Assembly (NCBI GenBank): GCA_015492515.1
Contig: WGEZ01000091.1
Span: 1-39,082, forward strand
Reading direction: 5' to 3'
Origin: Nitrospirota bacterium
GTDB taxonomy: Bacteria > Nitrospirota > Thermodesulfovibrionia > Thermodesulfovibrionales > JdFR-85
DNA: 39,082 nucleotides
In this document: positions 8,371-39,082 of the stretch, one piece after another
Position numbering within the stretch: the first letter of the stretch is position 1
Layout of the letters: every line of letters begins with the position of its first letter
Made by a program: the position numbers and the translations under genes
Notes under the pieces: model-generated
What the model saw: the letters and a program-made list of their open reading frames with translations, nothing else
Told to the model about the DNA's origin: nothing
Database searches by the model: none

Positions 8371-9057
8371 TCACTGAAGATACACCCTCTCCGCCTCCAC
8401 CCACCGGTCCAGGAGATCGGTGAGGGTGCTGTAGAACCCGCCGTCCAGAGATTCGGCGACCCTGCGTCTGAACCTCCCGGTCCACCTTCCCAGGTGATCG
8501 TTCAGGAACCTGCGTTCCGCGTACCTGAGTATCCTGATGTGTTCCCTGTTGTTCTCCTTGAAGGCGATTGATTCCTTGTAGGTGAGGAAGTACATGAACT
8601 CGAGCTCGGCGGCGATATGGTCCACCCGTTCAGGCGTGCTCTCAGAGACCACGAGGCCGAAGGCCCTGTAGAAGCCGGCGATATCAGCCATCTGTGCAGG
8701 CTCGGTGAGCGAGTGGTGGGGGGTCTCCTTTGTGTACTCCGTCTCGTAGGGCGGCGAGAGGAGCCTCCCCTGGGGTTCGAAGAGCTCCGTATACTCATCG
8801 AGCAGCCCTTCATGCCCCATCGAGGAGAGGGCCCCCTCGAGCCTGCCCAGGAGGAGCTGAAACCCTCCGCCCTCTTCCATGAGGCCGGTGATATTCCTCC
8901 AGGCGTGCATATACCCCGAGGTGAAGTAGGCGAAGAGGCCCTCGTCGGGCCGCCTGAAGCCGTCGGCAAGGAGGCTGTAGATCCTGCTCCTCACCTCGGC
9001 CTCTATCGCCTCGTAACCCGTCGAGTCCGGGTTTCCGTCCCTGCAGTGGGCGTCCAT
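8371..9057 (-). CDS. TorD/NarJ-type chaperone for the molybdoenzyme alpha subunit
   Basis: A cytoplasmic assembly chaperone of 228 residues. Family signatures are the all-helical composition, DEYTELFEP followed by PPYETEY, and ERVDHIAAELEFMYFLTYKE, the TorD/DmsD/NarJ 'E-x-x-D-H-x-x-x-E-L' motif. These proteins bind the Tat signal and apo-alpha subunit, helping molybdenum cofactor insertion before export. It is the last gene of the minus-strand operon, 27 bases after the gamma-subunit gene, with an AAGGAGC ribosome site before the ATG at 9057. This matches gene orders of type II DMSO-reductase-family enzymes such as ethylbenzene, dimethylsulfide, chlorate and nitrite oxidoreductases. Confidence 0.92.
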   Translation of the reverse strand: MDAHCRDGNPDSTGYEAIEAEVRSRIYSLLADGFRRPDEGLFAYFTSGYMHAWRNITGLMEEGGGFQLLLGRLEGALSSMGHEGLLDEYTELFEPQGRLLSPPYETEYTKETPHHSLTEPAQMADIAGFYRAFGLVVSESTPERVDHIAAELEFMYFLTYKESIAFKENNREHIRILRYAERRFLNDHLGRWTGRFRRRVAESLDGGFYSTLTDLLDRWVEAERVYLQ

Positions 9058-9084
9058 CTCCGAAGCTCCTTTCAGATCTTCCGT

Positions 9085-10062
9085 TCACTCCCCCCTGCGG
9101 GGGATCGGATCGATCGTCACGGGGATCCAGGTGAGGGAGATCGATTTCCTGCCGTCGACGTTCCCCCTGCCGCCGTCCCAGACGGCTATATTGAGATAGG
9201 TCTTTCCGCCCGGCCTGAACCTGGCGTCGGAGGGGTCGTCACTCGCCATCTCTCTCAGGAACACCACGCTCCACCGGCCGTCTCCGTACCTGCCCCATGC
9301 CCGGACGTCTTGACCGGTCTGCCTGGTGAGGGTGCCGAAGCCCTCTGCTACGTACTCCACGGCCGTTGCATCGGAAGAGGGTCTGCCCGGGTATCGGGCC
9401 TTCAGAACCATGTCCACCGGTGAGAGCCCCACACCTTCGGTCAAGGGCTGCCGCACATCAAGGCCCCTCAGTCCCTGGACCTCGGCCTGCCAGTCGGCCC
9501 TCCACTGCCAGATGTTCACCGGCTCACCCTTCGCACCCATGAGGGGCGAGGAGGCGTGGGGCGAGAGGCTCAGGGGAAAGAGGAGGGCCAGGGAGTCCCT
9601 GAAGCTGTCCGGTGAGTTCTCCGTATCCACCGTCCCGTCCTCATAGGTGACCATGATGGCCATCATCCTGCCGTTGTGGAGGGCCTTCACCCTCGGCTCA
9701 GGGGTCCCCTCAAAGAGGTTGAAGATGAACTCCGTCTCCTCGGGCAGGTGTATCATCGACTCCCGGGGAACGGACGTCCCCCGTACGGGCCCGGCGGCCT
9801 CAAGGACGGTCAGTCTCACTGGATAGGCCCTCACCCCGTCCCATACAGGATCATCGGGGTCCAGTGTCAGGGCACCTGAGGTATACCTGACCCTGATCCC
9901 CTCCTCACCGTGGGAGGGGGCTGTTCCTGCAAAGATGGCCAGGGTGAGGATCACCGTCACGAGCCCCGGCCAGAGGCGGCGGCCGGAGGAGGGGGTGAGG
10001 ACCCGGTTCACCCTCTCCTTCATCCCCGGACCGTCGGCAAGGTGTGTCGTATCCCTGTTCAT
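9085..10062 (-). CDS. Heme b-binding gamma subunit of the type II DMSO-reductase-family enzyme (NxrC/EbdC-like)
   Basis: A periplasmic heme b subunit that passes electrons between the Fe-S subunit and a cytochrome c. The 325-residue protein has a basic N-region and a Sec-type signal helix (about residues 30-52, LVTVILTLAIFAGTAPSHG). The ethylbenzene dehydrogenase-type heme-binding domain follows, with PVNIWQWRADWQ as its best marker. The family ligates heme b with Met and Lys; likely candidates are Met175 (SSPLMG) and Lys306 (GRKSISLTW), by analogy only. ATG 10062 follows GGAGGAGGGA; an in-frame GTG at 10077 lies in that site and is rejected. At 325 residues it is longer than EbdC/DdhC-type subunits and closer to NxrC-like ones. 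Confidence 0.9.
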   Translation of the reverse strand: MNRDTTHLADGPGMKERVNRVLTPSSGRRLWPGLVTVILTLAIFAGTAPSHGEEGIRVRYTSGALTLDPDDPVWDGVRAYPVRLTVLEAAGPVRGTSVPRESMIHLPEETEFIFNLFEGTPEPRVKALHNGRMMAIMVTYEDGTVDTENSPDSFRDSLALLFPLSLSPHASSPLMGAKGEPVNIWQWRADWQAEVQGLRGLDVRQPLTEGVGLSPVDMVLKARYPGRPSSDATAVEYVAEGFGTLTRQTGQDVRAWGRYGDGRWSVVFLREMASDDPSDARFRPGGKTYLNIAVWDGGRGNVDGRKSISLTWIPVTIDPIPRRGE

Positions 10063-10080
10063 GGCTCCCTCCTCCACTGC

Positions 10081-11220
10081 TTATGTTATGTCTATCCTGT
10101 AGACATCGAGCCTGCTGTCGTAGTGCTTTCTGACCACGGCGGGTTCCGTGGTCGGGACCCTCGCCACGAGTTTGCCCTTCCCGTTGTAGCCGTATGCGAC
10201 ATCGGCCTTGACGCGGAACCTGCTTATGATCTCCGGTGAGCTCCCGAACATGACGAGGAGCCCTTTCAGGACAGGATCGTCCGGGACCGACTCCCTGTAG
10301 GTCCTGACCGCCTCCTCCACCCCGGGGCCGAACATCTGTCTCAGGAACGGTGCAGGGACATGGATCGGGGGGATGTAGTAGACGTTCGGCTCCGTGCCGA
10401 ACTGCGGGTAGAGGGGCAGGGCGAGCTTCCTTATGTGGACCAGGTAGTCTATGGGGTTGTCCTCCTCTGCCTTCTCAGGCGGGCTGATCCATCCCTGGAT
10501 CCGGATCTTCCCGATACACTGCTCGATGCACTGCGTCTGTATCCCCTGTTCCATCTTCGGGTAGCAGGCCACGCACTTCTCCGACCTTCCCGTCGTGGCA
10601 TTGAACATCGGTTTCTTGTATGGACAACCGGCGATACACTCCTTGTACCCGTTGCACCTCGCCTGGTCTATCAGGACGACGCCGTCTTCAGGCCGTTTGT
10701 AGATGGCCTGCCTGGGACAGCTTGCCAGACACCCGGGATAGGTGCAGTGGTTGCAGATCCTCGCCAGGTAGAAGAACCAGACGGGATGGGGAAGGCCCTC
10801 TATATGCATCCCCTGCTCCACGGTACCGTAGATCTCGTCTTCGCCGATGTTCGGGTAGGACCATTCCTCGAGGGCCGGCAGATAGCCCTCGGCCTTCTTC
10901 TTCTGCTCCTCTGCCTTCTCGAAGATGGTCTTGCCCGTATAGACGCCGTCCTTCCAGCCTCCTGCAGGCAGCATCTCGAGGACCCTGAAGTCCCATGCCT
11001 GGGGGTACCCTCCATAGGGTTTGGTCTCCACGTTGTTCCAGTACATATACTCCTGGCCGCGGCCGGAGGTCCAGGTCGTCTTGCACGCCACGGAACAGGT
11101 CTGGCAGGCGATGCACTTGTTGGTGTCGAAGACGGCTGCAAACTGCCTCTTCGGCCTCTTTCCCTCGTAGGGGTATTTCATCCTCCGGCCTATCTGCCAG
11201 TTATACACCTCTTTCATCAT
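10081..11220 (-). CDS. Iron-sulfur beta subunit (NxrB/NarH-like) of the molybdoenzyme
   Basis: Electron-transfer subunit with four Fe-S clusters, 379 residues. Cysteines group as Cys36/39/42/46, Cys156/159/164/168, Cys189/195/199 and Cys216/219/231/235, fifteen in all. In the third group the second position is Tyr192 (CNGYKEC), where NarH has Trp. By family knowledge this gives one 3Fe-4S and three 4Fe-4S clusters. There is no signal peptide, so it should be carried through Tat with the alpha subunit. NarH is over 500 residues; this length is nearer to NxrB and the other type II beta subunits. The ATG follows AAGGAGGAG, and the gene lies 30 bases after the alpha gene and 18 before the gamma gene. 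Confidence 0.95.
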   Translation of the reverse strand: MMKEVYNWQIGRRMKYPYEGKRPKRQFAAVFDTNKCIACQTCSVACKTTWTSGRGQEYMYWNNVETKPYGGYPQAWDFRVLEMLPAGGWKDGVYTGKTIFEKAEEQKKKAEGYLPALEEWSYPNIGEDEIYGTVEQGMHIEGLPHPVWFFYLARICNHCTYPGCLASCPRQAIYKRPEDGVVLIDQARCNGYKECIAGCPYKKPMFNATTGRSEKCVACYPKMEQGIQTQCIEQCIGKIRIQGWISPPEKAEEDNPIDYLVHIRKLALPLYPQFGTEPNVYYIPPIHVPAPFLRQMFGPGVEEAVRTYRESVPDDPVLKGLLVMFGSSPEIISRFRVKADVAYGYNGKGKLVARVPTTEPAVVRKHYDSRLDVYRIDIT

Positions 11221-11250
11221 GGCTCCTCCTTGTCCGGATGGCTCGGTTGT

Positions 11251-14200
11251 TCATCGGGTATATCTTCCCTTCAGATAATCCCTGAACGGTCCGGTCTCGT
11301 AGCCGACCCTTATCCCTCTCTTCGCAGGGCCCCACAACCCCCTGCCGCTCTCGCCTCCGTCTTCGGCCTTCAGGAACCTGACCAGCGACTCACGGGGTGC
11401 TCCGTTGGCGCAGTGCACATCCGGTGCAAACCCCTTCCCTATGGCCTGACCCATCAGGTTCTTCCTGACGAGAGAGTCCGTGAGGAGCGTCGGCCTCAGC
11501 CATGAGCGGGTGCCGCTCTGGTGGCTGCCGTAACGGTACATCGCCTGGTACTTCGTCTCGGAGTTCTTGGCGAGCCCGTCAGTGCGGGTCTCGTGTCCCT
11601 TCACGGAACCGAAGGTGGCCACGGAGAAGTGGAACCACGTCCGCGCCACGCCCCGGGGGGTGCCGGGATAGTACCTGGCCCTGAGCATGCACCTTGCGAC
11701 CTTGTACTCCCTGGGCCGGTACTGCCAGCCTGTGAAGGGCTGATCCTCAGGGTCTGCGTCCACCCAGATGTAGTCGCCGTCCTCGATCCCGAGCTCCCTG
11801 GCGTCCTCGGGGTTTATATCCACGTAGCCCTCGCCCACCCAGGGCTTCCGTCTGTCATGCCTGTACATGTCACCGAAGTTGCCCCACCAGACGGACAGCA
11901 CATCGAGGTCCACAAAGGCGGTATGAACGCTGTGACGGTACTTGGGCGTGATCCAGATGTATCGGTAGTTCTCCCTCGTGAGGGGATGGGATGTCTTCAG
12001 GAGTTGATCCGGTGAGAGGACCACGTTCCTCACCTGCCGCGTCTCCCTGGTGAGGTCCTTCGATGAGAAACCGTAGTCCTCGGGCCTCTTCGGCCTTATC
12101 AGGGGGTGTGGTGAGGCGACGATCACGTTCGGCTCATAGAAGGTGGAGTCAACCGGCTCGCGGTGGAGGGGGATACACTCCCCGTAGTCCTTGAACTCCT
12201 GCTCATCCCTGTAGAACTCGAGCCTTCCCGTCCTGTTGTACCACGGTGAGGACTCGTTGCTCTGCTCATAGCCGATGAACTTCGGATAGGTCCTGCCCAT
12301 CATCATCGCCGGGATCCCCTTCCTCGCCAGCCTGATCAGCTCCTCCACGTCGTATCCCTTCATCATGTTGGAGTGGTCGAGGATCCGCTGTATGTAGGGC
12401 TTGGCCCTGTGGTCGTCGTCTATGAAACGCCAGTAGTCGATGAAGCGGTTCTCACCGGTCAGTCTGGCCAGCTCCGCTGCGACCCCCTTGTAGACCTCCG
12501 TATCGCTTCTGGTGTTGTGTATCCTCTTTATCTCGCTCAGGGGCATCACCTGCATGAAGGGGTTGGTGCAGGACTGTGTCACGTCGTGTATATTGTACTC
12601 CGCCCAGCTGTCCACGCCGAAGACTATGTCTGCATACTCGCAGGAGGCCGTCCACCACCAGTCGTTCACTATCACCACGTCGATCATGCGCTTGTGCATC
12701 CCCGGCGCCCGATATGCCGGGTGCCTCACGAGGTTCATCACCACCTCGTAGTGGCCCTTGGCGTTCCCGAGGATGGAGTTCGAACCGGCGAACCAGAAGG
12801 ACTTCGTCGGTGTGGGCATGTGGGTCTGGCCGTTGAAGTAACGACCCGCCACCTTGAGGGGCTGGTCGGTGTGGGAGTAGAAGTGGGCGGACTGGAAGCC
12901 GAGATACTTCTTCACCCTGGCAGGCCTCCTCGGATCGAGGGTGATGTTGAAGGGATCCTCGGCCATGTACTGGGGCATCCCGTTGAAGTAAGCGGCCCTG
13001 TAGTTGCCCGCATAGCTGCCGACGTTGCCGCCGAAGAAGCCGACGTTCCTCGTCAGGGCAGCGACGAGGAAGACCGCCCTGTCCTTCTGGTCGGCGTTGA
13101 AGAACTGGTTCGGTCCCATCCCTGTGGTTAGGAGGACCCCTTCGGGGTTCTTCGCGAACTGCCGCGCAAGGCTGTAGATCGCGGAGACCGGCGCCCATGT
13201 CACCCGTGAGGTCTTCTCAGGTGTCCAGGTGTCGTTCAGGTGCTGCCTTATCACGTCGAAGACAGGCCTCACCTTCACCGTCCCGCCCCCTATCTTCACC
13301 GTGAACTCGCCCTCGAGGACCGGATCCAGGTTCAGCCTCTTGAAGTGCTCTCCTATGTCGTCGCGGCTGACCACCGCCGGGCCCCCTCTCTTGCGGTCCC
13401 AGATGACGAAGTCGCCCCACTCGTTACGCATCTGTTCCGTAACCCCCTGTCTCGCCACGTTCACATCGAAGGGCCTGGGGAGGTCCTTCCGGTCCTTCAC
13501 CACCCTGGTCAGCCTGAGGGGCTTCGGCTTGTAGTCCCTCCCGTAGAGGTCCGAGGCCCTGAGGAGGTCGCCCGTGTCCATCCTCACCAGGAGGGGCAGA
13601 TCGGTGTATCCCTTCACGAACTCCCCGTCGTAGAGGTTCTCGTTGATGATCACCTGGGCTATTCCCAGGGCGAGGGCAGGGTCGGTACCGGGTCTGATGA
13701 TCACGATCTCGTCGGCCTTCGAGGCCGTTGAGTTGTACTCCGTGGCGATCACCACCACCTTTGCACCCTTCAGCCTCGCCTCGGTCAGCCAGTGCGCGTC
13801 GGGCATCTTCGTGGATATCCAGTTCATCCCCCAGCAGACGATGATCTTTGCGTACTCGGCGTTGCAGAGGTCGAAGTCCACCGTCTGCTGCCCTGTCACC
13901 ATCGGATGACCCGGCGGGAGGTCGGTGTGCCAGGAGTAGTTGTCGAAACCTATCCCTCCCTTCGCCTCCGACGGCTCGACCCCCCTTATGTATGAGTCAA
14001 GGAGGGCCATGGAGTTGCCGAACCTGTAGAGCCCGAAGAGCTTTATCGAGCCGAGCACGGGCATACCGCCCCTGAACTTCATGGCCCGTGTACCCGCCCC
14101 CTCCATCTTCCTTATCATCGCCTCGTCGTAGCCCTGGCGTTGCAGGAGCGCCGCGCCTCTCTCTCCGGAGTAAACCCTTGCGGTTTCATACAGGGCCTTC

Positions 14201-14748
14201 GCCGCGACCTCGAAGGCCCTCTCCCAGGAGAGGGGGATGTAGGTGTCCTCCCCCCTTCGGAAGAGCTCCGCCGGCGGGAGCCCGTCCTCATCCCTCGGGA
14301 ATCCGGACTCCACCCACTCCAGAAAGCCCCTCCTCACCATGGGGCCCTTCACCCTGCGGTCGCCGTAGAACTTCCTCACAAGGGCTATGCCCTTGTTGCA
14401 GTGACGGGGGTCCCACCTCTGGCTCGCCCTGTTGCCGTAGACGTCGGTGGCCTTGTGGTAGTTCTGCGTGGGTCCGAGCCTCACCACCACGTCGTTCTTC
14501 ACATAGGCGGTGAGGTAGCAGTTGTGGGTGCAGTTCGGGGTGCACATGAAGGTGTAGCTCCGGTCGGGCCTGAAGATGTCCCTGTAGACCTTCTCCCAGT
14601 CCCGTTCAGGATAGTACTTCAGGGGGTTTCCGACTCCGACCGCTGGTTGCAGCAGCCTCATCGCCAGTGCATTCGACCCGCCGAGCAGTGACAACGCCGC
14701 ACCGCTCAGCGTGGTCTTCAAGAACCTCCTTCGGGTCATCCCGGCCAT
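11251..14748 (-). CDS. Molybdopterin alpha subunit of a Tat-exported nitrite oxidoreductase / nitrate reductase-like enzyme
   Basis: Catalytic subunit, 1165 residues, of the type II DMSO reductase family. The N-terminus has a twin-arginine signal (TRRRFLK at residues 5-11, then a hydrophobic stretch to about 29), so it acts in the periplasm. An FS0 cluster site follows: Cys69, Cys73, Cys77 and Cys117. Asp276 in [10 protein letters not shown] fits the aspartate Mo ligand of this family. The molybdopterin-binding and C-terminal dinucleotide-binding regions ([24 protein letters not shown]) are intact. Length, Tat signal and the partner genes (cytochrome c, beta, gamma, TorD, no NarI) look most like periplasmic NXR or periplasmic-facing nitrate reductase. 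Chlorate, selenate or similar substrates remain possible. The start follows GAGGAGGGACGGAAG. Confidence 0.93.
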
Positions 14749-14776
14749 CTTCCGTCCCTCCTCTTGATCTTCTTGT

Positions 14777-15562
14777 TTATTTGACCTTTCCCATAAGCTT
14801 CAGGGTGTATGAGACGAGGTGCCACCTCTCTTCCTCGTTCAACGAATCCTCGTAGGAGGGCATCCCTGTTCCGTCGAGCCCTGTGGTGAAGGTGAGATAG
14901 ACGTTCTCGGGAGAGGTACCCCTCTTCAGCCTCGCGGTGGTGAAGTCGAAGGGCCATATCGGTTTGCCCCAGTCGTCCTTCAGCCTGTCGGACTTGGGGC
15001 CGTCTCCTCTACCCTCGTAGCCGTGGCACTCCCAGCACTTCATCTCCTTGTATATCTCCTTGCCCCGTGTTATCGATTCAGGGCTGCCCACCCAGTCGGG
15101 CCTCTTCGCCCTTATCACAGCTCCGCAGGGCTCCTCCTCCTGCCACCTCGGCGATAGCCCCTTTATGTACTCCACCAGATCGGTGACCTCTCCCTCCGAG
15201 AGGTCCCTGTGGGAGGGCATGCCCGACCTGAGCACACCGTCCCTGATTATCCTCTTGAGATCACCGTCCGTGGGCAGACACCCGGTGGGCGTAGTCCTGA
15301 ACTTGAAGACCCCCACCGTGAAGTCCCTCGGAAAGATCATCCATATCCGACCGCTGCCGCTGTCCCTGTCAACGATGCCTATCTTGCCCTTGCCGTCCCC
15401 TCTGGGCCCGTGGCAGAGTACACAGCGGCTCTCATAGAGCCTCTTCGCCGACCCGGCGGCCTCTCCAGATCCGCCGTATGCAGTGGCGACGGTAAGGGTG
15501 AGGACCGTCAGAGAGGAGACGAGCAGGAGAGGGATCCCGTGTTTGCCGTACCGGTATCTCAT
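14777..15562 (-). CDS. Periplasmic diheme cytochrome c, first gene of the molybdoenzyme operon
   Basis: A 261-residue exported cytochrome with a signal peptide (hydrophobic at about 9-30) and two class I c-heme domains: CVLCH at Cys47-His51 and CWECH at Cys176-His180. Likely axial methionines are Met115 (SGMPSHRD) and Met234 (GTGMPSYEDS). Two extra cysteines (TGCLPT, EEEPCG) may form a disulfide. ATG 15562 follows GGGAGG; the longer frame from 15661 lacks support. It ends 28 bases before the alpha-subunit gene, so it is probably the direct electron partner of that enzyme. It is a close paralogue of the cytochromes at 33662-34453 and, more distantly, 34544-35311, next to the oxidase genes. Confidence 0.93.
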   Translation of the reverse strand: MRYRYGKHGIPLLLVSSLTVLTLTVATAYGGSGEAAGSAKRLYESRCVLCHGPRGDGKGKIGIVDRDSGSGRIWMIFPRDFTVGVFKFRTTPTGCLPTDGDLKRIIRDGVLRSGMPSHRDLSEGEVTDLVEYIKGLSPRWQEEEPCGAVIRAKRPDWVGSPESITRGKEIYKEMKCWECHGYEGRGDGPKSDRLKDDWGKPIWPFDFTTARLKRGTSPENVYLTFTTGLDGTGMPSYEDSLNEEERWHLVSYTLKLMGKVK

Positions 15563-15624
15563 AGCCGTGACCTCCCGTTCTATGTTTTGCAGCCATGCAG
15601 AGAAGCTCCTTCCCGATCGATACA

Positions 15625-15653
15625 ACTCTATCAGAAAAGGCGTGGTTTGTCCA
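15625..15653 (-). promoter_or_regulatory. Candidate promoter of the cytochrome-molybdoenzyme operon
   Basis: Read on the minus strand, TGGACA (15653-15648) and TAGAGT (15630-15625) are spaced by exactly 17 bases. The -35 matches five and the -10 four of six sigma-70 consensus bases. The predicted start near 15618 leaves a leader of about 55 bases to the ATG at 15562. It lies in the 210-base gap between the NarL-like regulator gene and the operon, the natural place for control by that regulator. No well-formed NarL palindrome was seen. Confidence 0.45.
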
Positions 15654-15772
15654 TCCTGCAAGGGTATGAATTTACGGAATATTTTGAACTATGAAGGGAT
15701 ATGCAATAGGGCTACGGGAAGGGCTCCCGGTAATACGGAAGGGGTAGTCCGAAGGGTTAGGGGGGCGGCCGT

Positions 15773-33081: not shown

Positions 33082-33501
33082 ATGCAGATAACCAGAGAGG
33101 CAGACTACGCGATCAGGTGCGTCCTCTATCTGGCCGCCCACAGGCACGAGACGGTGGCCGTCGGAGAGATCGCAGAGGCCCAGTACATCCCGAAGACCTT
33201 CACCGCCAAGATACTGCAGAAGCTCGTGAGGGCGGGCATCGTCGCCTCGGCGCGCGGCAAGAAGGGCGGCTTCACCCTCGCCAGGGCCCCATCCATGATA
33301 AGCCTCCTTGACGTGATCGAGACCATCCAGGGGCCGATCCCGCTGAACATGTGCGTGATCGACAGGAAGAGCTGCGAACGGACCGATTACTGCACCGTCC
33401 ATCCCGTCTGGGTCGAGCTCCGGGCCGACTTTGTGAGAAAGCTGAGGTCGATCAGGTTCAGCAGGCTCGTGAAAGAGGGGAAGGGCTCGGGGAGGCGGTG
33501 A
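33082..33501 (+). CDS. Rrf2-family transcription regulator with Fe-S-type cysteines
   Basis: A 139-residue winged-helix regulator. The N-terminal MQITREADYAIRCVLYLA, PKTFTAKILQKLVRAGIVAS and RGKKGGFTLAR are classic Rrf2/IscR/NsrR motifs. Cys91, Cys98 and Cys104 (C-x6-C-x5-C) lie where IscR and NsrR bind their iron-sulfur cluster. The protein therefore probably senses NO, oxygen or Fe-S status. The spacing differs slightly from IscR (x5, x5) and NsrR (x4, x5), so which it resembles in function is open. It precedes the cytochrome c and cbb3-type oxidase genes on the same strand, with a 160-base gap, and is their likely regulator. Confidence 0.93.
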   Translation: MQITREADYAIRCVLYLAAHRHETVAVGEIAEAQYIPKTFTAKILQKLVRAGIVASARGKKGGFTLARAPSMISLLDVIETIQGPIPLNMCVIDRKSCERTDYCTVHPVWVELRADFVRKLRSIRFSRLVKEGKGSGRR

Positions 33502-33661: not shown

Positions 33662-34453
33662 ATGCCGATACGCGGAAGGAAAGCAACGAAGTACGGGTTC
33701 GGACTGCTCATCCTCTCTCTGGCGCTTCTCCTCGGCGCCGTCGCCGGGGTCCGCGCCGCCGATGACGGGATCGCCGCCGGCAGAGAGGCCTTCAGGCGGA
33801 ACTGTGCGGTCTGTCACGGCACTGAGGGTGATGCAAAGGGTCAGGTCTGCTTCGTCAGGAGCGTGGAGAGGAGCGGACGTGTCATGGATACCTATCCCAG
33901 GGACTTGACGGTGGGCGTCTTCAAGTTCAGGACGACGCCCACGGGGTGTCTGCCCACGGACGAGGACATCCTCAAGATAGTGACCGACGGGATTCCCAAG
34001 TCCTCCATGCCCACCTTCAGGGACATGCCCCTCGAGCAGAGGAAGGCCATCGTCAGTTACGTAAAGACCCTCTCGGAGAGGTGGGAAGAGGAGGAGCCCT
34101 GTGAGGGCATAACGGTGAAGAGGCCCGAGTGGGTGGGCAGCCCGGCCTCCGTGCAGAGGGGCAGGGAGGTCTACAAGGACATGAAGTGCTGGGAGTGTCA
34201 CGGCTACGAGGGCAAGGGCGACGGTCCCAAGTCGGCCAAGCTGAAGGACGACTGGCAGCGGCCGATTGTGCCCTTCGATTTCACGACGGGCGAGCTGAAA
34301 CGCGAGACCTCGCCGGAGTCCATATACATCACCTTCACCACCGGTCTCGACGGAACGGGGATGCCTTCCTACGCCGAGTCCCTGAACGAAGAGGACAGAT
34401 GGCATCTCGTCTCCTACACGCTTGAACTGATGGGCTACAAGGCCGGTAGGTGA
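33662..34453 (+). CDS. Periplasmic diheme cytochrome c (close paralogue of the molybdoenzyme cytochrome)
   Basis: A 263-residue exported diheme cytochrome. A signal peptide (about residues 1-32) precedes CAVCH (Cys48-His52) and CWECH (Cys176-His180). It matches the cytochrome at 14777-15562 along its whole length. Shared blocks include VGVFKFRTTPTGCLPTD, MKCWECHGYEGKGDGPKS and FTTGLDGTGMPSY, and both extra cysteines are kept. ATG 33662 follows GGAGGGTAGAG; the frame opens at 33530 but the extra part is AT-rich leader. It probably carries electrons to the oxidase encoded downstream. Confidence 0.93.
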   Translation: MPIRGRKATKYGFGLLILSLALLLGAVAGVRAADDGIAAGREAFRRNCAVCHGTEGDAKGQVCFVRSVERSGRVMDTYPRDLTVGVFKFRTTPTGCLPTDEDILKIVTDGIPKSSMPTFRDMPLEQRKAIVSYVKTLSERWEEEEPCEGITVKRPEWVGSPASVQRGREVYKDMKCWECHGYEGKGDGPKSAKLKDDWQRPIVPFDFTTGELKRETSPESIYITFTTGLDGTGMPSYAESLNEEDRWHLVSYTLELMGYKAGR

Positions 34454-34543
34454 CGACGGACTCCGCAGGGGCGGAAAGGGTGAGGCCCGAAGGCGGCTCC
34501 CTCACCGCCCCTTCGACAATAACAACTTCAGGGAGGTGTGGCC

Positions 34544-35311
34544 ATGGGTAAAAGGCGATGGCAATCCGTGTACTTCAGGTCCCTTGTTCTCTCTCTGCCG
34601 GTCCTCCTCGCCCTCCTCGCCCTGCCGGGCCCTTCTCGTTCAGAGGAAGGCGGAGCGAGGGGGAGGGACGTCTATGAGAAATACTGCATAGGCTGCCACG
34701 GTGAAAAGGGTGACGGAAGGGGGGAGGCTGCAGCAGACCTGATCATCAAGCCGAGGGACTTCACCCTCGGTCTTTTCAAGTTCAAGTCCACCCCGCCGGG
34801 GTCCCTTCCGACGGATGAAGACCTCAAGAGGGTCATCACAAACGGTCTTCCCACGTCGGCCATGCCCAGGTTCAGGCTCGTGTCTGACGACGAGAAGGAG
34901 GACCTCATTGCATACATAAAGAGCCTTTCCGGGAGGTGGAAGAAGGGGACGCCTGAGAGGAGGTTCACAGAGGTGGTCGTCCCTGACTTCGTCGGCACCC
35001 CTGAGTCTGTCAGGAAGGGGGAGAGGCTTTTCGCCGAGAGGTGCAGGAGGTGCCACGGCACGAAGGACTCCGGTCCTCCAGCGACGTTCTTCCTGAGGTG
35101 GGGGGGTGAGGACTGCACCGATCTGGTCAGGCCTGCGAACTTCAACTACGGAGTGATAAAGAGGGGGCCGAGGGTGGAGGACATCTATCTCTCCATAAGC
35201 GCCGGGGTGGATGGAACACCGATGCTCTCCTATGCAGACCTGCTGAGCGAGGAGCAGAGGTGGCATCTCACGTCGTATATCCTGGAAATCATGGGTAAGG
35301 TGAGGAGGTAA
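34544..35311 (+). CDS. Second periplasmic diheme cytochrome c of the oxidase cluster
   Basis: A 255-residue diheme cytochrome with a signal peptide (about 1-34), CIGCH (Cys48-His52) and CRRCH (Cys167-His171). It shares the plan and several blocks of the two close paralogues (FTLGLFKFKSTPPGSLPTDEDL, GVDGTPMLSYADLLSEEQRWHLTSY) but is more diverged and lacks the extra cysteine of TGCLPT. It sits seven bases before ccoN. As no ccoP is present, it is a candidate replacement for the diheme subunit of the oxidase, but as a soluble rather than membrane-anchored protein. ATG 34544 follows GGGAGG. Confidence 0.92.
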   Translation: MGKRRWQSVYFRSLVLSLPVLLALLALPGPSRSEEGGARGRDVYEKYCIGCHGEKGDGRGEAAADLIIKPRDFTLGLFKFKSTPPGSLPTDEDLKRVITNGLPTSAMPRFRLVSDDEKEDLIAYIKSLSGRWKKGTPERRFTEVVVPDFVGTPESVRKGERLFAERCRRCHGTKDSGPPATFFLRWGGEDCTDLVRPANFNYGVIKRGPRVEDIYLSISAGVDGTPMLSYADLLSEEQRWHLTSYILEIMGKVRR

Positions 35312-35314
35312 GTC

Positions 35315-36706
35315 ATGACTGAAGAGAGAGGCGGAATAGTCAGTTATCCGTTGGTGAGGTTCCATATAGTCTTTTCCATGCTGTACCTCGGGATAGTGCT
35401 GCTCGGAGGGCTCCTCTATTCCCTCCAGTTCATAGGGCTCTATCCCTTCCCGGGCATAGAGATATTCTCTCCGGGGAGGATAAGGATGCTCCACACCAAC
35501 GGAGCTGTTTACGGTTTCATTATCAACGGCTTCATGGCAGGCCTGTACTGGGCTGTACCCAGGCTGACGGGCCACAGGGTCTGGAACGAGAGGTTCATCG
35601 GATGGTTTCTCGCCATCGCCCTCCAGGCAGCGGTCCTGGCCACGGCAGGCGGTCTCCTCCTCGGTCTTGCCCAGGCCATCGAGTGGGGAGAGACGCCTGT
35701 ATTCATAGACCCTGCTGTAGTTGCCTGGCTCTTTGTTGCATTGGCTCAATTTGCGGTTCCCATTTACAGATACGCCAGGGAGAAGGCGCTCTATGCCTCC
35801 AACTGGTACATCCTCGCCGGCCTCATCTGGGTGATCATGGTCTACATCATGGGCAACTACGTCCCCCAGTTCTTCGTGCCCGGTGTCGCCGGAGCCGCGG
35901 TCACAGGGACGTGGATCCACGACGCCGTCGGTCTCTACGTGACCCCCATCGGGTGGGGCCTGATGTACTACTTCGTGCCCGTGCTGCTGAGGAAGCCCAT
36001 ATGGAGCCATGCCCTCTCCCTCCTCGGCTTCTGGGGGCTCGCCTTCTTCTATCCCCTCCAGGGAGTTCATCACTACCTCTGGAGCCCGATACCGATGTAC
36101 GCCCAGTACGCAGCGGTCCTTTCGACGGTCATCCTTGAGCTCGCGGTGGTGACGGTCATCGTCAACTTCCTCATGACCCTGAGAGGCAACGCCGAGGCCT
36201 TGAAACACAATATCCCGGTGAGGTGGTTGTTTGTGGGCATCATAAACTATGCCGTGACGTGTCTGCAGTGCGCCCTCCAGGTGCTCCTCACCACGCAGAA
36301 GGTGATCCACTTCACCGACTGGGTCGTCGGACATGCACACCTGATCATGTACGGCACCTTCGGGTTCTGGATCATGGGTTTCTTCGCCTATCTCTGGCCC
36401 AAGGTGAGAAGGTCTGAGGTCTACTCGAGGACACTCGATGAATGGGCCTTCTGGCTCATCACGATCGGCATGTCGGTGATGTGGGTGGATCTTGTATCCG
36501 CCGGTCTTGTACAGGGGTTCACATGGTGGGGCCTCTCGCCGTTCATAGACTCTGTGAACTTCTCCGTACCGTTCTGGGTGACGAGGACGATCTCGGGGCT
36601 GATGATCACGGCGGGCTTCGTCGCCTTCGCCTACAACATGTACATGACCGGCAGAAGGGCGCCCGTGCCGGCGGCACAGCCCCAGACATCAGGAGGTGCA
36701 GTATGA
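35315..36706 (+). CDS. ccoN: Divergent cbb3-type cytochrome oxidase catalytic subunit
   Basis: A 463-residue heme-copper oxidase subunit with about 12 membrane helices that reduces O2 at heme b3-CuB. Expected ligands are present: His60 (RMLHTNGAVYG, heme b), CuB ligands His202 (TWIHDAVGLY), His252 and His253 (QGVHHYLW), and His340/His342 (VVGHAHLIMYG). Tyr246 aligns with the His-linked tyrosine of CcoN. The glutamate of the classical STFEGP segment is replaced by Gln318 (TCLQCAL), and GHNAV reads IHDAV. It is therefore a divergent member, and a related NO reductase-like activity is a weak alternative. It is four bases from the upstream cytochrome gene and overlaps ccoO. Confidence 0.88.
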   Translation: MTEERGGIVSYPLVRFHIVFSMLYLGIVLLGGLLYSLQFIGLYPFPGIEIFSPGRIRMLHTNGAVYGFIINGFMAGLYWAVPRLTGHRVWNERFIGWFLAIALQAAVLATAGGLLLGLAQAIEWGETPVFIDPAVVAWLFVALAQFAVPIYRYAREKALYASNWYILAGLIWVIMVYIMGNYVPQFFVPGVAGAAVTGTWIHDAVGLYVTPIGWGLMYYFVPVLLRKPIWSHALSLLGFWGLAFFYPLQGVHHYLWSPIPMYAQYAAVLSTVILELAVVTVIVNFLMTLRGNAEALKHNIPVRWLFVGIINYAVTCLQCALQVLLTTQKVIHFTDWVVGHAHLIMYGTFGFWIMGFFAYLWPKVRRSEVYSRTLDEWAFWLITIGMSVMWVDLVSAGLVQGFTWWGLSPFIDSVNFSVPFWVTRTISGLMITAGFVAFAYNMYMTGRRAPVPAAQPQTSGGAV

Positions 36707-37350
36707 AGAGGACCCCTGTAGCGGAAAGGTTCTCCACCATAGCGCTCTTTGTGGGCATAGGCCTCTTCGCCTTCGGGACCTTCTGGCAGGCCGTGGCCCC
36801 CTGGCTCTCCCTGAAGGAGATACCCGTGGAGACGATGGAGGATATAGCGGAGACCATACCGCCCGAGTTCTACATGCTCGCCAGGGACTATCCCGAGGAG
36901 TTCGGAAGGTATTTCGGAAAACCCGACAAGGCCTCCTTCATCGAGGCCCTCAAGACCGCCAAGGAGATCTACATCGCCGAGGCGTGCTGGCACTGCCATT
37001 CCCAGTTCGTGAGGCCCGTCTCGAAGGAGGAGATCAGGTACGGTAAGGTCTCCTACCCCTCGGAGTATGCGAACGTGATGCAGCTTCCGCAGCTCCTGGG
37101 GACGCGGAGGGTAGGGCCGGACCTTATCAGGGAGTCGGGCCGTCACAGCAACGACTGGCACGTGGCGCACTTCAAGAACCCGCCCGCTGTTGTTCCAGGC
37201 TCGGTGATGCCCAAATTCACGTGGTTCTTCGATGAGAAGGGGAGGCCCAACAAGAAGGGCCTCTCCATGGTCACCTACATGCAGTGGCTCGGAAGCTGGG
37301 CGAGGGAGCCGATGTACGAGCTGCCCAGCAGGGAGGGAGAACGGTCATGA
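36703..37350 (+). CDS. ccoO: cbb3-type oxidase monoheme cytochrome c subunit
   Basis: A 215-residue membrane-anchored cytochrome c, subunit II of cbb3 oxidases. An N-terminal anchor (about residues 10-34, STIALFVGIGLFAFGTFWQAV) leads to the heme site CWHCHSQFVRPV (Cys98-His102). TRRVGPDLIRESGRHSNDWH and PGSVMPKF with the probable axial Met follow. These match CcoO well. ATG 36703 overlaps the ccoN stop as ATGA. An upstream frame from 36442 is a shadow of ccoN. The gene overlaps the next small membrane-protein gene by four bases, so the cluster is translationally coupled. Confidence 0.93.
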   Translation: MKRTPVAERFSTIALFVGIGLFAFGTFWQAVAPWLSLKEIPVETMEDIAETIPPEFYMLARDYPEEFGRYFGKPDKASFIEALKTAKEIYIAEACWHCHSQFVRPVSKEEIRYGKVSYPSEYANVMQLPQLLGTRRVGPDLIRESGRHSNDWHVAHFKNPPAVVPGSVMPKFTWFFDEKGRPNKKGLSMVTYMQWLGSWAREPMYELPSREGERS

Positions 37351-37703
37351 GCAGGAGAGACAAGGTGATAACCTATATCATGATCTTCCTCGTGATACTG
37401 CCCGGCGGGATCAGCTTCTTCATAAAGGTGGGGAGCTATTTCATGGTCGAGGTGGAAGAGGGGATGTCGGGCTTCGCCCTCCCCTTCTTCAACTACCTCT
37501 TCGTGGCCCTCGGCTTCGTCTCCCTCTTCGTGTGGGCCTTCCTGAGGGGACACTTCAGGGATATCAACAGGCCCTCTCAGGAGATGCTCGAGATGGAGAG
37601 GAGCTTCGAGGACAGTGACCTGAGGGAGGATGAGGGACGCGGTCAGACGGGGCCCGTTACCGAGGGTTGCACCCTGAAACAGACACAACAAAGGGAGGTA
37701 TGA
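37347..37703 (+). CDS. Small two-helix membrane protein with a CcoS-like segment
   Basis: A 118-residue inner-membrane protein with two hydrophobic helices (about 8-28 and 46-66) and a charged C-terminal tail. The segment after the second helix, FVWAFLRGHFRDINRPSQ, resembles the W-A-x-x-x-G-x-F-x-D-x-x-x-P pattern of CcoS, the copper-insertion protein of cbb3 oxidases. CcoS itself is only about 50 residues and has one helix, so this would be an extended relative. Start at ATG 37347, overlapping the ccoO stop. Context (between ccoO and a CcoI-type ATPase) supports a maturation or small-subunit role. Confidence 0.75.
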   Translation: MSRRDKVITYIMIFLVILPGGISFFIKVGSYFMVEVEEGMSGFALPFFNYLFVALGFVSLFVWAFLRGHFRDINRPSQEMLEMERSFEDSDLREDEGRGQTGPVTEGCTLKQTQQREV

Positions 37704-37706
37704 GTT

Positions 37707-37892
37707 ATGGAGAGAGACGAACTCGGCTATGCCGGAGGTGTGGGCAGATGGTTCATAGTCTTCATCATCATTGGCATGGCGGTGATCCTGATCGGCTACT
37801 CATCGAGATACTTTTTCCCTGACCTGGCCAACTGGTTGAGAGAAGGAGCTGATCCTGACAAGGTCATATGGCAGACAGAGAAGGGGAGATAA
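37707..37892 (+). CDS. Small single-helix membrane protein of the oxidase cluster
   Basis: A 61-residue protein with one membrane helix (about residues 14-33, WFIVFIIIGMAVILIGY) and a short polar tail. ATG 37707 follows GGGAGG at eight bases, three bases after the preceding stop, and the next gene begins 25 bases before its own stop. It has no heme motif and no recognised family. Its place in the operon suggests a CcoQ/CcoH-like accessory or subunit role, but sequence similarity to those was not seen. Confidence 0.7.
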   Translation: MERDELGYAGGVGRWFIVFIIIGMAVILIGYSSRYFFPDLANWLREGADPDKVIWQTEKGR

Positions 37893-39082
37893 GGTGTTAT
37901 CAGTGCGCTCTGCCCATCACCGGTTCACGCAGAGAGAGGATAAGGGACGCCGGTGAGGCGTTCTGCTGCACAGGATGCCTCCTCGTACATAAGATAACCG
38001 GTGCCAGAGGAGAGGAGGGGTTGAGCCAGACCCTCCTGGGGAAGTTCGGACTCGGTCTCCTCCTGTCGATGAATGTCATGTTGCTGAGCGCCCCCCTTTA
38101 CGCCGGCGCTTATGCATCCATAGCGGTCCCTGAGAGGTTCTCCTCGGCCATCAAATACGTCCTCCTCTGCCTCTCCCTCCCTGTCATGGTCCTCCTGGGT
38201 TATCCCATACTCAGGTCCTCCTGGGTCTCGATCAGGAAGGGCGACATAGGGACCGAGGCGCTGATCCTGATCGGTGCAGCATCGGCCTTCCTCATCTCCG
38301 TCAAATCCACCATGACCGGAGAGGGTGAGGTCTACTACGAGACGGCCACGATGATACTCACCCTCTACACCCTGGGCAGGTATATCGATGCAAAGGCGAG
38401 GTGGAGGGCCTCTGAATCGATAAAGGGGCTGTCGTCGATCATGCCCTCAGAGGTCCTGTTGATGAAGGAAGGGGGCACCACGGAACCGATCCCCGTGGAC
38501 GAGGTCTCCATAGGCGACAGGGTGCTCCTGAGACCCGGCGAGAGGATACCCCTCGACGGTGTAGTGGTGAGGGGTTCGGGTTCTGTGGATGAGTCGTTCC
38601 TGACCGGAGAGAGCAGACCGGTCATCAAGAGGGAGGGGACGGAGGTCTTCAGCGGAACCCTCAACATCGACGGAAGCCTCGTGATAGAGGTGAGGAAGCC
38701 GGCCCGGGAGTTCGTGGTCAGGAGGATCGAGAGGCTGATGGAGAGGATAAGGGAGAGACCCTCCCGGATAAGAAGGATAAGCGACGCGGTCGCCGCCTGT
38801 TTCATACCCCTCGTCGTGGCCCTCTCCCTGGGCAGCCTCATCTACTGGCTGATAAGGGGAGAGCCCTCCACAGCGGTGATGAGGATGCTCTCCGTCCTCC
38901 TCATATCCTGCCCCTGTGCATTCGGTATGGCCGCGCCCCTTGCGCTGTGGAGGGGCCTCGGGAGGGCCGCCGAGAGGGGGGCGATCGTCATGGGAGCGGA
39001 CGTGCTCGAGGGCCTCGCCGGGGCGGGGACGATCTTCTTCGATAAGACGGGCACTGTAACGACCGACACCCCCGCCCTCTTC
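37868..39082 (+). CDS. ccoI: CcoI-type copper-transporting P-type ATPase (3' end outside window)
   Basis: The first 405 residues of a P1B ATPase that delivers copper for oxidase assembly. The N-terminus carries CYQCALPI and CCTGC (Cys10/13 and Cys33/34/37), the metal-binding segment typical of CcoI/FixI. It lacks a classical ferredoxin-like HMA domain. Membrane helices, the actuator motif TGES (FLTGES), the copper-type CPC motif (ISCPCAF) and the phosphorylation site DKTGT follow. The frame is open to the last base. ATG 37868 lies 25 bases inside the preceding gene. The cysteine motif at residue 10 means the start cannot be further downstream. Confidence 0.95.
   Translation, partial: MADREGEIRCYQCALPITGSRRERIRDAGEAFCCTGCLLVHKITGARGEEGLSQTLLGKFGLGLLLSMNVMLLSAPLYAGAYASIAVPERFSSAIKYVLLCLSLPVMVLLGYPILRSSWVSIRKGDIGTEALILIGAASAFLISVKSTMTGEGEVYYETATMILTLYTLGRYIDAKARWRASESIKGLSSIMPSEVLLMKEGGTTEPIPVDEVSIGDRVLLRPGERIPLDGVVVRGSGSVDESFLTGESRPVIKREGTEVFSGTLNIDGSLVIEVRKPAREFVVRRIERLMERIRERPSRIRRISDAVAACFIPLVVALSLGSLIYWLIRGEPSTAVMRMLSVLLISCPCAFGMAAPLALWRGLGRAAERGAIVMGADVLEGLAGAGTIFFDKTGTVTTDTPALF

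Follow-up and report, generated by a model that had tools for sequence, protein, structure and literature searches.

A cbb3-type oxidase operon of Nitrospirota in which CcoP is probably divided into an anchor-helix protein and a diheme cytochrome

Contig WGEZ01000091.1 (C91) of a Nitrospirota bacterium (assembly GCA_015492515.1) ends in an operon for a cbb3-type (C-family) oxidase, in which CcoP is probably present as two proteins: a 61-amino-acid (aa) protein that provides the anchor helix and a periplasmic diheme cytochrome c, here called cyc2. The window is the whole contig, 39,082 nucleotides of a 2.19 Mb, 148-contig draft genome that is rated 100% complete. Oxidases of the cbb3 type serve respiration at nanomolar oxygen, and their annotation assumes a one-chain CcoP. 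The split layout is a widespread and apparently undescribed variant of these enzymes. The genes of the operon are the following:

33662-34453, plus strand: cyc1, secreted diheme cytochrome c, probable carrier from a bc-type complex to the oxidase (two CxxCH motifs, signal peptide)
34544-35311, plus strand: cyc2, secreted diheme cytochrome c, suggested to serve as the heme part of subunit III (two CxxCH motifs, match to 6h5l_B)
35315-36706, plus strand: ccoN-like catalytic subunit (COX1 209 bits; TIGR00780 205 bits)
36703-37350, plus strand: ccoO-like monoheme subunit (FixO 112 bits; one CxxCH)
37347-37703, plus strand: 118-aa two-helix protein with a CcoS (FixS) domain (FixS in 14 of 16 family members)
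37707-37892, plus strand: 61-aa single-helix protein of a family related to the N-terminal anchor of CcoP, FixP_N (FixP_N in 14 of 31 family members)
37868-39082, plus strand: ccoI-like gene of a copper P-type ATPase, truncated at the contig end after 405 N-terminal aa (TIGR01511 247 bits)

All seven genes lie where the initial annotation of this DNA had placed them, in the order cytochrome c, cytochrome c, ccoN, ccoO, 118 aa, 61 aa and ccoI. They are tightly packed: adjacent genes are at most 4 nucleotides apart or overlap, with the exception of about 90 nucleotides between cyc1 and cyc2. When gene order was compared across relatives in a scan of a genome collection, the same layout was found in at least 80 further loci with 51-85% CcoN identity, and it is therefore neither chance nor an assembly artefact. 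Together with the window, the survey set comprises 81 loci. A diheme cytochrome c is encoded at most 1.5 kb upstream of ccoN in 76 of the 81, and the 118-aa family is likewise present in 76. Homologues of the 61-aa protein, seen in 75 loci in a first iterated search, are present in 73 of the 81 in the final survey. Absences are mostly at contig ends; the eight loci without an anchor homologue end shortly after or within the genes concerned. CcoO carries a single heme in 75 of 78 loci.

It had been claimed from the start that no membrane-anchored diheme CcoP is encoded between ccoO and ccoI, and this is confirmed both by TIGR00782 (ccoP) and by FixP_N, the membrane domain of CcoP. No protein of the genome scores over the TIGR00782 cut-off (best 54.7 against 180 bits), and the best match is the hexaheme cytochrome of a bc-type operon on contig C113. 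FixP_N has no match in this genome or in its relatives G264, G152 and G310, and no chain in this genome combines a FixP_N anchor with c-type heme domains. Further, no CcoQ was found in the operon, and for canonical CcoG (TIGR02745) the genome holds sub-threshold relatives only.

A conventional CcoP might have escaped detection, whether it lies in a gap of the assembly or has diverged and is encoded at another place in the genome, because the genome is a draft and the contig breaks inside ccoI at position 39082. The part of ccoI in the window corresponds to residues 1-405 of the homologue in locus L046. On contig C41 of the same genome we find a ccoI C-terminus, corresponding to residues 419-691 of that homologue. 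Behind it come genes for a 141-aa protein and a CcoG-like protein. C41 is probably the continuation of C91, and about 13 codons would then be missing between them. The 141-aa protein, considered as CcoH, has no Pfam match. The initial annotation had named a ccoP gene just beyond the window or elsewhere as refuting its reading, and none was found in the draft genome or on C41.

The relatives make a missed CcoP highly improbable. In complete loci such as L046, L047 and L051, ccoP is absent from the stretch that runs from ccoO to the end of ccoI and also from the region behind it. FixP_N has matches in 7 of 24 further split-type genomes, all in frames of 60-81 aa (one of them over the cut-off) and none beside a frame of CcoP length; the remaining genomes have no match, as is also the case for the three relatives named above. 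In L055 and L073, the two loci for which coordinates were checked, the match is the stand-alone anchor itself. A heme motif behind the anchor was found in none of the 81 split loci.

Judged by profile comparisons, the 61-aa family is homologous to the N-terminal helix of CcoP. Its consensus is Y...PWW....W..F....I.Y...Y..PD...W. FixP_N is the commonest Pfam family among the 31 members (best 1.1e-5), and the best match of the family profile in the PDB is CcoP (E 0.009). Compared with canonical proteobacterial CcoP N-termini, the profile gives a probability of 59.7% (E 9e-5), while the controls give 1.8% for CcoQ and 0.3% for the 118-aa family. In addition, a hidden Markov model of canonical CcoP N-termini puts the 61-aa family top among 532 small frames (best 15.2 bits); the best other frame reaches 4.3 bits and the best of 1500 shuffles 6.5 bits. 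We also considered the 61-aa protein as CcoQ and rejected this, given the low profile probability and the lack of a FixQ match. As the 61-aa protein is related to the anchor helix, CcoP appears to be divided, not simply missing. The initial view of a missing CcoP thus holds for the one-chain protein and has to be amended for the anchor.

Each of the two cytochromes has a signal peptide that looks cleavable and lacks any further hydrophobic helix; both are predicted to be secreted. In the cyc2 family two methionines are invariant and are candidate axial ligands. The relatives of the two proteins differ. On the tree cyc1 groups (100/100) with the diheme cytochrome c of the bc-type operon on C113, to which it is 65% identical, and with a diheme cytochrome c beside a molybdoenzyme in the window (63%). 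cyc2 falls in a clade of ccoN-adjacent cytochromes from related loci, and in its closest relationships it agrees with CcoN. Because cyc1 groups with the bc-associated cytochrome and cyc2 tracks CcoN, we read cyc1 as probably a carrier and infer that cyc2 is an oxidase subunit. The ccoN-adjacent cytochromes of several other phyla have a lipobox-like N-terminus, a sign of a likely lipid tether.

In another clade a diheme module of the same kind is part of the oxidase chain. It is fused to CcoO in L138-L140, in S. meliloti pSymA (L151) and in Phyllobacterium (L170), and to CcoN-CcoO in L141, L142 and L150. These fused forms occur in Nitrospirota and on Sinorhizobium/Phyllobacterium plasmids. They have three c hemes, and an anchor-like protein of 51-74 aa is still separate (weak in L142, E 0.013). 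Fusion of the module to CcoO or CcoN-CcoO, with the anchor kept apart, supports a role of the diheme module as an oxidase subunit. The initial annotation had proposed that the soluble diheme cytochrome before ccoN might take the place of CcoP. From the conserved adjacency, the CcoN-like phylogeny and these fusions, cyc2 is most likely the heme part of such a replacement. Two corrections are needed: the anchor is retained separately, and the two cytochromes are unlikely to be equivalent, as cyc1 groups with the bc-associated one. The unusual subunit make-up that was anticipated is there, in the form of CcoN-CcoO with separate anchor and diheme genes.

The same evidence bears on whether there is a subunit III at all. 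The enzyme might be a CcoN-CcoO core to which both diheme proteins are freely diffusing donors, with the 61-aa protein as a helix for assembly or stability. Two secreted proteins that lack a further hydrophobic helix would suit this, and so would the paralogues that accompany the bc-type complex and the molybdoenzyme in the same genome. However, other clades have the homologous module joined to CcoO or CcoN-CcoO, the diheme gene keeps its place close upstream of ccoN in those 76 loci, and the relatives of cyc2, unlike those of cyc1, track CcoN. We regard a bare core as rather unlikely.

A number of observations weigh against a CcoP divided between the 61-aa protein and cyc2. The FixP_N similarity of the 61-aa family is short and, in absolute terms, weak. 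The window's own member has no Pfam match and no FixP_N match in the genome scan, and therefore its assignment rests on the family. Further, cyc2 is not close to the heme domains of CcoP. The closest solved relative of both cytochromes is 6h5l chain B (E 6e-55 for cyc1 and 1e-43 for cyc2). A predicted model of cyc2 (predicted local distance difference test score, pLDDT, 81) matches this chain with a Foldseek E of 9.6e-18 and template modelling (TM) scores of 0.76/0.87, and CcoP is a far weaker match in both sequence and fold. In this genome related diheme cytochromes also accompany other enzymes, and cyc2 may therefore act as a shuttle instead. Finally, the joining of the split and fused clades on the CcoN tree has weak support (84/52), and the branch of the split clade is long; for this reason we claim no direction of change.

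Since 6h5l_B is the closest solved relative and CcoP a far weaker one, the heme module of cyc2 looks like a replacement from another family and not like a freed C-terminus of CcoP. The idea that cyc2 is a detached CcoP heme domain, which we also considered, is weakened by the same matches.

In the divided-CcoP model, electrons would pass from quinol to the bc-type complex, on to the soluble diheme cyc1 and then to cyc2 docked on CcoN-CcoO and the anchor. From cyc2 they would continue over heme c of CcoO and heme b to heme b3-CuB in CcoN, and to O2. The 61-aa anchor would occupy the site of the CcoP helix, and cyc2 would be a bound subunit. The 118-aa CcoS-like protein and CcoI would supply or insert cofactors during assembly. 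A more tentative idea, to which we give a low probability, is that the electron-entry side of the C-family oxidase is modular, with a constant small anchor helix and an exchangeable cytochrome. The diheme protein of the split form would then be a detachable docking subunit that may shuttle between the bc complex and the oxidase. If this were true, the one-chain CcoP would be just one of several solutions.

The window CcoN matches P. stutzeri CcoN with E 4e-38, and the window CcoO matches cbb3 subunit II structures with E 8e-23 (8smr_F). In the window CcoN and in all 33 split-type rows of the alignment, the His ligands of heme b, heme b3 and CuB and the active-site Tyr of helix VII are kept; residue names follow the P. 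stutzeri structure. This Tyr is characteristic of oxygen reductases. With the ligands and the Tyr kept, the enzyme likely reduces oxygen.

Nitric oxide reduction, or another function on a cbb3 frame, has some features on its side. CcoN scores far under the curated ccoN equivalog cut-off of TIGR00780 (205 against 583 bits), as a diverged branch and not an equivalog. The conserved Glu323 of P. stutzeri CcoN is Gln in the window and in the other Nitrospirota forms (Met in one), and NorB is a distant match. However, the Tyr found in all 33 split rows is missing from this genome's own NorB, and the partners FixO, FixS and CcoI are those of cbb3 oxidases. A function other than oxygen reduction thus seems very improbable.

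No bd oxidase was found in this genome, and its two other full-length heme-copper enzymes are without the active-site Tyr (the one on C9 by alignment, the one on C123 as read from its sequence). The split cbb3 oxidase may therefore be the sole standard oxygen reductase of this organism. At L005 (G000:C9, 3731-7880) the enzyme is NorB-like, with Thr at the Tyr position, and its gene is accompanied by those of a NorC-like protein with two hemes, a CcoG-like protein and a membrane protein. At L006 (G000:C123, 21-2224) an unusual enzyme is encoded, in which a heme-copper oxidase-like protein with Ser at this position lies beside a CoxB-like subunit, which is without any Cys and therefore has no CuA site.

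The 118-aa protein is probably a CcoS-like maturation factor. It has two predicted helices, the extra one being N-terminal, and so departs from the short single-helix form of CcoS; the FixS domain lies in the second helix (best 4e-8 in the family). In four of four genomes the 118-aa protein is over the FixS cut-off, and it is the sole protein over it in each. In this genome it scores 22.8 bits, which rises to 23.7 when its neighbours in the frame are included; the cut-off is 23.1. The initial annotation had correctly described the two small membrane proteins as a two-helix and a single-helix protein; that they are CcoS-like and related to the CcoP anchor was not foreseen.

The split-type loci represent at least 15 phyla, and most of them belong to Planctomycetota, Aquificota, Myxococcota and Acidobacteriota. 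Since many are from metagenome bins, individual phylum assignments may be in error. The closest named relatives at the cbb3 locus are Thermodesulfovibrionales/Nitrospirota (85% CcoN identity). Within Nitrospirota the distribution is patchy, with a CcoN of more than 50% identity in 5 of 396 genomes. The split type forms one clade on the CcoN tree (support 100/100), and each of the subunit architectures is one clade. ccoI adjoins the operon in many lineages and was not seen there in the Aquificota loci, so the core unit is cyc-N-O-118-61. In other cbb3 operons of Nitrospirota (L131-L137, L147-L149) the c hemes are arranged differently again: CcoO carries two CxxCH motifs, and it is accompanied either by a CcoP with one heme or by a separate anchor without heme.

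With canonical CcoNOQP (P. stutzeri 3mk7/5djq; Rhizobium FixNOQP) the operon shares the CcoN and CcoO ligands, the active-site Tyr and the CcoS-type and CcoI genes. In contrast to it, the operon encodes the anchor and the diheme cytochrome separately, its cytochrome belongs to a different family and CcoQ was not found in it; canonical CcoN is about 30% identical to the window CcoN. The S. meliloti and Phyllobacterium form has the same kind of diheme module and separate anchor-like and CcoS-like proteins beside ccoO, but its cytochrome is fused to the C-terminus of CcoO, and its CcoN is about 38% identical. The diheme protein of the Kuenenia Kustc0457/0458 complex (6h5l chain B) resembles cyc1 and cyc2 in sequence and fold; its partner is not an oxidase but an octaheme hydroxylamine-oxidoreductase-like protein, and PMC6423088 describes it as the redox partner of an octaheme enzyme.

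The same operon type as in the window is found in Candidatus Magnetocorallium paracelense XS-1 (L049). As far as the accessible text of its report goes, ccoN, ccoO and two copies of ccoP lie on one contig, there is no ccoQ, and neither a split nor an anchor is mentioned (PMC10278575). The two ccoP copies are most likely the two diheme cytochromes. A search of an open-access library for cbb3 oxidases that lack CcoP or have separate anchors gave no description of the separate anchor or of the split clade; with this scope, the novelty is provisional. A clade of at least 15 phyla seems to divide CcoP, and annotation, to go by accessible text such as that for XS-1, appears to name the diheme proteins ccoP and to leave the anchor unnamed. 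The separate, CcoO-fused, CcoN-CcoO-fused and one-chain forms are a natural series with which one could test, in Sinorhizobium meliloti among others, what the CcoP anchor does and how electron-entry modules are swapped.

Directly upstream of the operon lies the gene of a possible regulator, and a type II DMSO-reductase-family molybdoenzyme operon with the third diheme cytochrome (14777-15661) occupies 8371-15661 on the minus strand:

33082-33501, plus strand: Rrf2-family regulator (TIGR00738 118 bits, over cut-off; Pfam Rrf2 124 bits)
11251-14748, minus strand: molybdoenzyme alpha subunit
10081-11220, minus strand: molybdoenzyme Fe-S subunit
9085-10077, minus strand: molybdoenzyme heme b subunit

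In L047, L053 and L054, too, there is an Rrf2 gene ahead of the operon. The bc-type complex on C113 (L153, 5135-8946, minus strand) comprises cytochrome b and two c-type cytochromes, one hexaheme and one diheme. In XS-1, genes for hexaheme and diheme proteins of this kind are found immediately upstream of the cbb3 operon. A multi-helix membrane protein of about 215 aa, with no Pfam match, is encoded beside ccoN in Bacteroidota, Kuenenia-like and some other loci (for example L081, 7443-8087, and L099, 5235-5900).

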